A stretch of 64,000 nt of DNA from Mycobacterium paragordonae (GTDB lineage: Bacteria; Actinomycetota; Actinomycetes; Mycobacteriales; Mycobacteriaceae). The position numbers were made by a program, and so were the translations under genes. The notes below the pieces were generated by a model. The model had not been told where the DNA came from and did no database searches. It saw only the letters and a list, made by a program, of their open reading frames with translations. The stretch lies in contig NZ_CP025546.1 of assembly GCF_003614435.1 (NCBI RefSeq), positions 1,302,001 through 1,366,000 of the forward strand, read 5' to 3'. Shown piece by piece: positions 34,540-38,292 of the stretch (within the stretch, counting starts at the first letter, position 1; each line of letters starts with the position of its first letter).

Positions 34540-34959
34540 TCAGAGGTGGCGGCGGAACCCGTCCGCGTCTGACGTCGCTTCGTTGAGCGAGGCGTCGGCG
34601 TACCCGCGGCAGTAGTCCCACGTGACGTAGGCGTCCGGCTCGGGGTCATAGGCCGGCTCGTGCGGACGCACGGTGCCGTCGATGAGCAGCTGCAGCAGGT
34701 TCGCCCGCAGCATGTCCCAGTCGTGGTAGTGGTCCTGCTGACACTCGTCGCAGCAGACCACCAGGCCGCGGATCCCGCGGTGCGCCAACAGCGCCTCGTA
34801 TACCGCCAAGTCCGCCAGGTCCGCTTCGACGGCCATCCGTTCCTGCTGATCCAGTGGCTGGCCCGGCTCGACGGCCTCCAGAGCGGCCGACGGGTCCATT
34901 GGGTCGTCGGCGAAGGGATCGGGCGGCAAACCCGGCGGGAGGTGGTCACGCACCCCCAT
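34540..34959 (-). CDS. DUF5319 family protein (Rv3412 homologue)
   Basis: 139 aa soluble acidic protein of unknown function, conserved in actinobacteria. It has a CCDECQQDHYHDWDMLRANL block with Cys-Cys-x-x-Cys and His residues that could bind a metal, and VTWDYCRGYADASLNE near the end. ATG at 34959. Convergent with rsdA (30 bp gap), as in M. tuberculosis. Confidence 0.9.
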   Translation of the reverse strand: MGVRDHLPPGLPPDPFADDPMDPSAALEAVEPGQPLDQQERMAVEADLADLAVYEALLAHRGIRGLVVCCDECQQDHYHDWDMLRANLLQLLIDGTVRPHEPAYDPEPDAYVTWDYCRGYADASLNEATSDADGFRRHL

Positions 34960-34973
34960 AGCCTACGCAGGCC

Positions 34974-35093
34974 GGTAGTGATAACGCCAGAAATTGCCGG
35001 GGCGCGCCCCGCACCACCGGGATGACGCCAGAAATAGCTGTGGCGTGTCCGCGCCACTACCCGGATGACGCCGTGGCGCGTGCCCGCGCCACT
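34974..35093. repeat. tandem REP-like palindromic units, left of the IS
   Basis: Three degenerate units each begin with a GATAAC/GGATGACGCC-type sequence (34979, 35020, 35063) and end in a palindromic GC-rich stretch. The last is GTGGCGCG-TGCC-CGCGCCAC (35073-35092), a perfect 8-bp hairpin. A 37-bp segment (35057-35093) recurs exactly at 36571-36607 on the other side of the insertion sequence. Confidence 0.8.
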
Positions 35094-35393
35094 GATATGT
35101 AGGGCCCTTTGTCAAGGGGGCAGGGTGAAGCGGCGGCCACAACCGTCGTCATGGCCGCCGCTTCGTTAGCCAGGTGAGCGCTGAGGTATCGAGCGTGTCG
35201 TATCGACGCGTGTCAGTCTGATATGCGCGGGTTGGTTACCGCAGGACGGAATTTTCGAGTCGGAGTTTGGCCAGCGTGTCTAACGTCGAGCGTGATCTGT
35301 GGTGTGACAACAAGACTGCTCATAGTGGCGGCGCGGGTAACTCCAAGACGCTTGCCGACATCGTCGTTGCTCATCTGGGCAATATGGGGGTGG
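35094..35393 (-). ncRNA. candidate bridge/seek RNA region of the IS110 element
   Basis: The 300 bp after the transposase contain no credible gene. GTCTGATATG at 35216-35225 equals, over 10 nt, the junction predicted for the circular element (right end ACCGTCT joined to left end GATATG). GGACGG at 35244-35249 is complementary to the other junction half (CCGTC). AGTGGCG at 35324-35330 is complementary to target CGCCACT. A 13-bp perfect stem (35127-35139 with 35152-35164) lies at the distal end. Strand is assumed to follow the transposase; limits are unknown. Confidence 0.45.
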
Positions 35394-36491
35394 TCAGTCC
35401 GGAAGGACCGCCATAGACCAGCACCAGCCGGCCAGTTCACGGGCGACAGCGACGTTGGCGATCACCGAGCGTTTCTTACGTTCGTCGAACCTCAGCCAGC
35501 GGTCGTGTAAGCGCCGATTAGCGGCTTGGCCACGAGCCACAGCCGCGGCTGGCGCCAATTCCCATCGACGACGCAGAGTTTCGCTGAGCCGATACGGGGT
35601 GCGGTGATGCCAGGCCGCCTCTACCAGCAGTCGCCGAGCATGGCCGTTGCCGGTCTTGGTTACCCCACCTTGGGCACGTGTTGCTCCCGAGGAATACTCC
35701 GAGGGCACCAGCCCCAGATACGCCCCGATGCTGCGGCCGGTCAGACGATTCCAGTCACCAATCTCGACAGCCAACCCGAATCCGGTCAACGTTGCGATCC
35801 CGCGGATACAACCCAGCCGACGTGCGACCGCGGTGAACTCACTGTCGCTCGCCATCGCCGCGATCGCCTCGTCAAGACGGTTACGACGGTCCACGCAGGA
35901 CAGCATCGCCTCGAACGCGGTGTCATAGCTCAGCTGCAGCGCCGGGTTGTCGAACCGCTGGGCACGCAACCACCGCTCATGCTCGCGGATCCAGGTCTTT
36001 CCGCCGGAATAGACAATGCCCTGGCGCAGCAAGAGTTTCGACAACCGGTGCCGTGCAGTCATCAGATCCCCGCGGCAGTCCTCGCGGGCCCGCACCAGAT
36101 CACGCGCCGCTTCCTGCTCCACACTAGGAATCGTCACTTCGGTGATCTGACCCAGATGCAGCAACCGAGCCAGATGCGCCGCATCACGGGCATCGGTCTT
36201 GACCCGATCGCCAGCCGGGCGGATCAACTTCGATGGCGCGGCCACCACACAGGCGATGCCCGCCGCATCCACCGCCCGAGCCAACCCGAATCCCGTCGGG
36301 CCCGCCTCATACGTCACCGCAACAGGACCCGGCAGATCACCCAACCACGCGAGGATCTCACCGCGATCCGGGGTCAACCTGCGCTCGAAAACCTCACCGG
36401 TATCACCGTCCAAAGCACACGCCACCACCGATCGCGCGTGCACATCCAGACCAACACTCGTACGCTGAACCTTCACTGGGGCCTCCCACAT
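35394..36491 (-). CDS. IS110 family transposase
   Basis: 365 aa, full length and apparently intact. The N-terminal RuvC-like DEDD domain shows Asp in VGLDVHARSVV, Glu in TYEAGPTGFGLAR and two Asp in KTDARDAAHLARLL. The C-terminal Transposase_20 domain has IGAYLGLVPSEYSSGATRAQGGVTKTGNGHARRLLVEAAW, containing the conserved catalytic-serine region. RNA-guided recombination by this family is established for IS621. GTG or ATG at the N-terminus (MWEAPVKVQRTSVGLDVH) is uncertain by a few codons. Confidence 0.93.
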   Translation of the reverse strand: MWEAPVKVQRTSVGLDVHARSVVACALDGDTGEVFERRLTPDRGEILAWLGDLPGPVAVTYEAGPTGFGLARAVDAAGIACVVAAPSKLIRPAGDRVKTDARDAAHLARLLHLGQITEVTIPSVEQEAARDLVRAREDCRGDLMTARHRLSKLLLRQGIVYSGGKTWIREHERWLRAQRFDNPALQLSYDTAFEAMLSCVDRRNRLDEAIAAMASDSEFTAVARRLGCIRGIATLTGFGLAVEIGDWNRLTGRSIGAYLGLVPSEYSSGATRAQGGVTKTGNGHARRLLVEAAWHHRTPYRLSETLRRRWELAPAAAVARGQAANRRLHDRWLRFDERKKRSVIANVAVARELAGWCWSMAVLPD

Positions 36492-36570
36492 CTGTGGCTC
36501 TACCGCCAGGACCCATTTCCTGTCGGCAACCCACGTTCACATGTGAGTGGGGCCCCAGCCCCCATACCGT

Positions 36571-38292
<1,722 letters not shown>

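Follow-up and report, generated by a model that had tools for sequence, protein, structure and literature searches.

The 64,000-nt stretch of the Mycobacterium paragordonae genome analysed here (6.73-Mb contig C1, NZ_CP025546.1, positions 1,302,001 to 1,366,000; hereafter the window) carries on its minus strand an IS110-family insertion element of 1,479 bp, one copy of a CT core (36571-36572) being counted in, beside a gene that we take to be guaB. The gene of its transposase (Tnp, gene tnp) is followed by 300 nt of non-coding DNA, compared with 79 nt at the left end, upstream of tnp, and this downstream region very probably encodes a guide RNA that names the insertion site, namely an IS110-family bridge or seek RNA, most likely of the same strand as tnp. 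An initial annotation of the window had placed such an RNA in the downstream non-coding region, and both the conserved RNA and the guide/target covariation described below support that proposal.

The ends of the element were fixed by three near-identical full copies at three sites of the genome, together with a fragment on contig C2. On the tnp-sense strand the left end reads ..TAG/ACGGTATGGGG and the right end ..CATATC/AG.., and the dinucleotide shared between them is AG on this strand, i.e. CT on the plus strand of the window. Because the ends are defined by three copies at three sites, the junction expected in an excised circle can be written as ..CCGT CT + GATATG.., and a related genome has the same intergenic region upstream of the presumed guaB without the element (612-bp joined flanks, 91%, 14 gap positions, none of them at the junction).

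Table 1. The insertion element, its RNA and its target, in window coordinates
Feature	Position	Strand	Basis or remark
Whole insertion element	35094..36572	-	ends common to 3 copies at 3 sites; empty intergenic region in related genome
IS110-family DEDD/Ser recombinase, 365 aa	35394..36491	-	NF033542 and DEDD/SG motif
Bridge/seek RNA, 181 nt (predicted)	35184..35364	-	covariance model R1; limits from the model, not from a mapped transcript
Target guide 1 (GCCGCCACT, ends with core CT)	35324..35332	-	pairs with tnp-sense strand of right-end flank; blind covariation z 7.0-9.7
Target guide 2 (GTTAG, ends with core AG)	35280..35284	-	same letters as tnp-sense strand of the other flank; blind z 7.0 at 35283
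Donor guide 1 (CCGTCC), complementary to left-end GACGG	35244..35249	-	antisense match kept in most elements; conserved complementarity only
Donor-loop inner hairpin UGCGG-UAACCAAC-CCGCG	35226..35243	-	5 pairs invariant in 39/39 sequences, hence conservation, no covariation
Donor guide 2 (CATATCAGAC), circle-junction copy	35216..35225	-	10 nt
Right-end hairpin, possible 3' end or roadblock	35127..35164	-	13-bp perfect stem; complementarity kept in most of the 46 relatives listed of 68
TTGACA, -35 half of proposed circle-junction promoter	35110..35115	-	sequence
GACGGT, -10-like half of proposed junction promoter	36566..36571	-	17-nt spacer in circle; weak match to sigma-70 consensus
Left end / structured leader of transposase mRNA (putative)	36492..36570	-	conserved hairpins, 69 left ends aligned
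Target core	35092-35093		beside the element
37-bp target minisatellite unit, left of element	35057..35093		tandem units also in the relative's empty site
37-bp target minisatellite unit, right of element	36571..36607		sequence repeat

Guide and target letters

Relatives of the element were found in 47 of the 297 genomes of the genus, the present one included, at E<=1e-60, and 80 named loci were retained from 505 confirmed relatives. After subtraction of five duplicates or fragments (L004-L008), 117 loci gave 112 elements, among which the RNA region was recognised by pattern in 96, a full right flank in 87, a full left flank in 88 and a guide anchor in 97. In a blind scan, made without these anchors, the RNA regions of 69 distinct elements were aligned, and each alignment column was set against each position of the flanks in search of identical or complementary letters, with 200 permutations as the control. 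Among the 58 distinct right flanks, one antiparallel run, 35329-35326, complementary to flank positions 5-2, accounted for the four strongest signals, with matches in 46, 58, 56 and 50 of the 58 (z 7.0, 9.7, 9.5 and 9.0), the next signal being at z 4.9. Among the 55 distinct left flanks, the strongest signal came from 35283, which is identical in 51 of 54 (z 7.0; next 3.8). The letters of the loop co-vary with both halves of the target, as would be expected of a bridge or seek RNA. A guide RNA in the left end was considered as well and rejected, since a scan of that end for target guides gave a best z of 4.0, compared with values as high as 9.7 for the right end.

When guide 1 was anchored, positions -5 to -1 matched in 32, 59, 70, 68 and 60 of 71 distinct guide/target pairs, and the two core positions in 71 and 70. 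The observed mean of 4.23 matches out of 6 compares with 1.78 when the 43 distinct guides are re-paired, and none of 10000 re-pairings reached it; guide 2 gave 172 matches of 219 vs 137.7 by re-pairing (again 0/10000), positions -3 and -2 matching in 37/73 and 65/73 vs 18.2 and 49.6, and position -1, a nearly invariant T (70 vs 70.0), being uninformative. The anchors were recognised by set words, [CT]TATG[AG]G and TAGA or GAGA among them, so that the matches at the core and the adjoining T are partly by choice, and related elements are not independent, an effect of kinship that re-pairing by distinct guide lowers but does not remove.

These results bear out the role that the initial annotation had given to AGTGGCG at 35324-35330, as a target guide for CGCCACT, which is guide 1. 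Its second candidate, CGGGTA as a match to target TACCCG, is a constant stretch and not a guide (and lies at 35334-35339, one base lower than claimed), and its match to the target is due to chance: CCCGCG opens the guide region in 74 of the 97 anchored elements, and TACCCG occurs in the right target half in 1 of 88. Both target matches had been thought to share one, non-classical orientation; the true second guide, GTTAG (minus strand, 35284-35280), is opposite in sense to guide 1, so that the arrangement is the classical one of sense and antisense. Relatives with unchanged loops at other sites had been named as grounds for abandoning the idea; the comparison did not refute it, as most relatives at a different site have a correspondingly different target loop, some mismatches apart.

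Natural retargeting is visible between nearly identical recombinases, even within one genome. Two elements of Citricoccus sp. CH26A (L075/L088), whose Tnps are 97% identical, carry the guides TCAA and TCGA and sit in the targets TCAA and TCGA, and the pair L012/L049 (91% identical Tnps) likewise has CGCC and AGGA as guides in targets CGCC and AGGA. There are 47 Tnp pairs of at least 85% identity with different four-letter guides, and 17 of the 40 listed match their own targets fully on both sides, a count made by eye on 40 of the 47 pairs, many of which share members.

A natural core mismatch was seen in L009 and L040-L044 (Mycobacterium sp. MAG), in which guide 1 has the core TT instead of CT; their right junctions are AA and their recognised left junctions AG, as if the target core stayed with one side. 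L009 and L043 have common flanks on both sides and are probably one place, and L039 has a right junction as in this group, its left end not being recognised.

Donor loop, RNA structure and element ends

The donor loop spans 35216-35249, where an invariant hairpin stands between a sense and an antisense half of the junction. The longest string common to the 18-nt junction and the non-coding region on either strand, the outermost 26 nt of the latter being left out, is 10 nt, a length that 11 of 3000 dinucleotide shuffles reach; it is the junction copy GTCTGATATG at 35216-35225, present just as the initial annotation had it. The GGACGG assigned there to the opposite half is also present, at 35244-35249, at a spacing of 18 nt and not the 19 nt given. 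A sense match of at least 7 nt that includes the core is kept in 68 of 71 elements and an antisense match of at least 5 nt to the other half in 67 of 71, counts that are not independent, the region being conserved; this retention of both matches in most relatives agrees with the suggested donor-binding layout of two halves around a loop.

A covariance model, R1, built from 39 RNAs with the window sequence among them, matches the window RNA with 154.3 bits (E 1.3e-35). In the own genome it found four places, the three full copies and the C2 fragment (150 of 5393 first-look candidates scored), and when applied to 150 genomes of the order, this one among them, it gave hits in 13. The structure drawn from the alignment has six helices with 26 pairs, in which 94.3% of cells are paired vs 88.8% in shuffles and the covariation score is 0.186 vs 0.085, neither value being reached by any of 500 shuffles; the secondary structure of the RNA is conserved by this measure, which favours the structure in that it was drawn from the same alignment it was tested on. 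Two-sided changes occur in 5/5 pairs of the stem below the target loop, 1/5 of the stem above it, 3/3 of the apical hairpin and 1/4 of the closing stem, while no variation is seen in the donor-loop hairpin and hardly any in the 3' hairpin. Among 14 held-out loci, i.e. loci outside the set from which the RNA model was built, eight have a recognisable right end, and 27 of their 40 guide letters match the flank, where about 10 would by chance (of five letters each, L173 4, L174 4, L176 4, L177 4, L178 2, L180 3, L182 1 and L183 5; L173, L177, L180, L182 and L183 were counted by eye). L180 and L182 look decayed. Membership of a known Rfam family was rejected, since a search over 34900-36750 gave four matches, with E up to 5 and none near its gathering score. 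As a side observation, the C2 fragment (L173/L004, C2:110953-111309) is a remnant in which a full-length match to the guide-RNA model adjoins a 42-residue transposase fragment.

In all 78 elements in which both ends were found, TTGAC of the right end and GACNNT, which spans the joined left end, are separated by a spacer of 16-18 nt. The right ends of the covariation set were chosen by a pattern with TTGAC..ATATC, so that the conservation of TTGACA is partly by choice, and the held-out L183 is without TTGACA. This arrangement fits the promoter that section 7 of PMC11187229 describes at the circle junction of ISEc11. A hairpin with a varying but complementary stem lies just upstream of TTGAC in most of the 46 elements listed of 68; in the window it has no T run, and it may mark the 3' end of the RNA or block read-through. 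The left end shows strongly conserved hairpins with partly compensatory changes and perhaps controls transposase expression.

Mechanism and rival explanations

Here we propose that a bridge (seek) RNA with two specificities, about 180 nt long, is encoded downstream of the recombinase, most likely on the same strand. Of the two short guides in its 5' target loop, one would pair with the CT core and one strand of the target half on the right, the other with the core and the opposite strand of the target half on the left, and the two guides of its 3' donor loop would fit the circle junction. The element would excise as a circle, whose joined ends would form a promoter (TTGACA, 17 nt, GACGGT) driving both recombinase and RNA; the RNA might then bring circle and target together, and the recombinase exchange strands at CT without target duplication.

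Several observations weigh against this interpretation, the strand counts given below among them. Single-sequence folding of the window RNA gave no advantage over its shuffles (z +0.94, with 166 of 200 folding at least as well), which holds for either strand, and promoter and terminator scans of the integrated element found none. The donor loop and the ends hardly vary, so that the support for pairing there is conserved complementarity. Two of the eight held-out loci match poorly, guide 1 position -1 is missed in 11 of the 71 pairs, and two of the three full own-genome copies mismatch at this position (GCCACT vs GCCGCT), the window copy alone matching. In addition, the other listed close pairs of the 40 mismatch on one or both sides, an example being L033, inserted at the target that its sister's guide specifies.

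As regards the strand, guide/target covariation looks alike whichever strand is read, and the G-U vs A-C counts (19 vs 30; 18 vs 17 when one divergent clade is left out) give no preference to the minus strand and do not decide between the two. A plus-strand RNA, antisense to the transposase gene, with the complements as guides and the donor loop first, nevertheless seems improbable to us, since it is on the minus strand that the guides follow the order published for IS1111, with the top-strand match in front, and the putative junction promoter is directed along this strand. We give considerably less weight to the idea that target preference lies in the protein and that the matches in the RNA region arise secondarily from common descent. 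Clonal lineages could hand down guide and target alike, and the mismatches in part of the close Tnp pairs would agree with this, but several pairs of 90-97% identical Tnps have different guides and correspondingly different targets, the fully matching pairs counted above included, and no re-pairing of the distinct guides equals the match that is observed.

A perfect 37-bp direct repeat stands on both sides of the element and could be taken for a target duplication left by an ordinary cut-and-paste insertion sequence, a reading that we find barely credible. The other two full copies are without such a repeat, and at the empty site of the relative there are tandem units of a similar repeat, inside which the alignment is ambiguous; since these units are present without the element, a repeat of the 37-bp type is older than the insertion.

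Placement within the IS110 family and further observations

The recombinase scores 207.9 bits against NF033542 (cut-off 140), which places it in the IS110 family sensu lato. Among 25 aligned recombinase sequences, D16, E62, D100 and D103 are invariant and S268 is kept in at least 90%, and particular residues of these five presumably serve in catalysis; the GL.P....SG motif lines up with IS621, and the nearest folds to the predicted structure (pLDDT 83) are IS621 and ISCro4. The closest named relatives belong to Mycobacterium and Mycolicibacterium, the others mostly to further Actinobacteria, among them Rhodococcus, Pseudonocardia, Nocardioides, Arthrobacter and Sinomonas. Among the sequences compared, IS4321 (R751) is the sole BLASTP relative at E<=1e-3 (25% over 285 aa; the E of 7e-15 applies to one of its two copies), and in a tree with one IS1111-type reference the recombinase joins it on a weak common branch (86/90), with long branches and deep divergence. 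We take IS4321, annotated as an IS110-like element, to be of the IS1111 type, and its target class presumably differs from that of the present element.

The present element differs from IS621 and ISCro4 of the IS110 group in that its RNA lies downstream of tnp and not upstream, the strand on which the target is read is the one opposite to tnp, about 4-5 letters of target guide 1 are effective in addition to the core, and the Tnps are about 20% identical. The IS110 group sensu stricto has its bridge RNA in the left end; here the RNA model matches downstream, and the left end is without a guide signal. As some IS110-type members do according to passages of Siddiquee 2024 (PMC11187229), the element has a long downstream non-coding region, and it shares this with the IS1111-type seekRNA elements ISEc11, ISPa11 and ISKpn4 portrayed there, along with a top-strand target match 5' of the bottom-strand match (if the RNA is on the tnp strand), a proposed circle-junction promoter and no target duplication. 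Unlike IS1111, with subterminal inverted repeats of 7-17 bp and a Tnp of 330-350 aa, the window copy has a Tnp of 365 aa and, at offsets below 12 nt from the element ends, a subterminal repeat of 4 exact nt (TATG/CATA), 7 exact nt being reached in 14 of 78 elements. Because these repeats are too short, we did not file the element as IS1111 proper, and we classify it as an IS110-family bridge/seek-RNA element of IS1111-like architecture, membership of IS1111 not being proven.

It is an apparently new actinobacterial member of the bridge-RNA/seekRNA elements. ISAar29 (named in Durrant 2024) might belong to its family, a guess from the name alone. ISKrh6 of Kocuria, likewise an actinobacterial IS110-family element, is of similar size (1,476 bp; PMC12500396). 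One tentative possibility, which we hold with some doubt, is an intermediate IS110/IS1111 actinobacterial subfamily in which the RNA position and guide order would be as in IS1111 and the terminal repeats short as in IS110, with a compact target code that is often rewritten in nature (about 4-5 nt and the CT core, followed across it by about 2-3 nt) and a second conserved structured RNA segment in the left end acting in expression or in the reaction. The covariation-based evidence for bridge and seek RNAs now reaches a mycobacterial and actinobacterial element family, and the short-looking target code and mixed IS110/IS1111 traits can help to test how the RNA moved between element ends. The family also supplies candidate programmable recombinases from high-GC hosts.

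The minisatellite-like repeat at the insertion site is GC-rich, lies between a small open reading frame on the minus strand (34540-34959) and the presumed guaB, and has units that differ among relatives; the two other full copies also adjoin GC-rich repeats on the right. In the left flanks of L002 and L003, two of the three full copies, the target TAG appears to be the stop codon of the upstream gene and survives insertion. Stop-codon targeting as such was rejected: an open frame of at least 100 codons is closed by the TAG left of the element in 29 of 76 sites and by 80 of 401 control TAGs, and this difference is both weak and uncontrolled. Finally, the own genome has 20 matches above the NF033542 cut-off, which points to several IS110-family groups, and in at least three of its IS110-family loci (L132-L134) the long non-coding region, read from coordinates, lies upstream of tnp.
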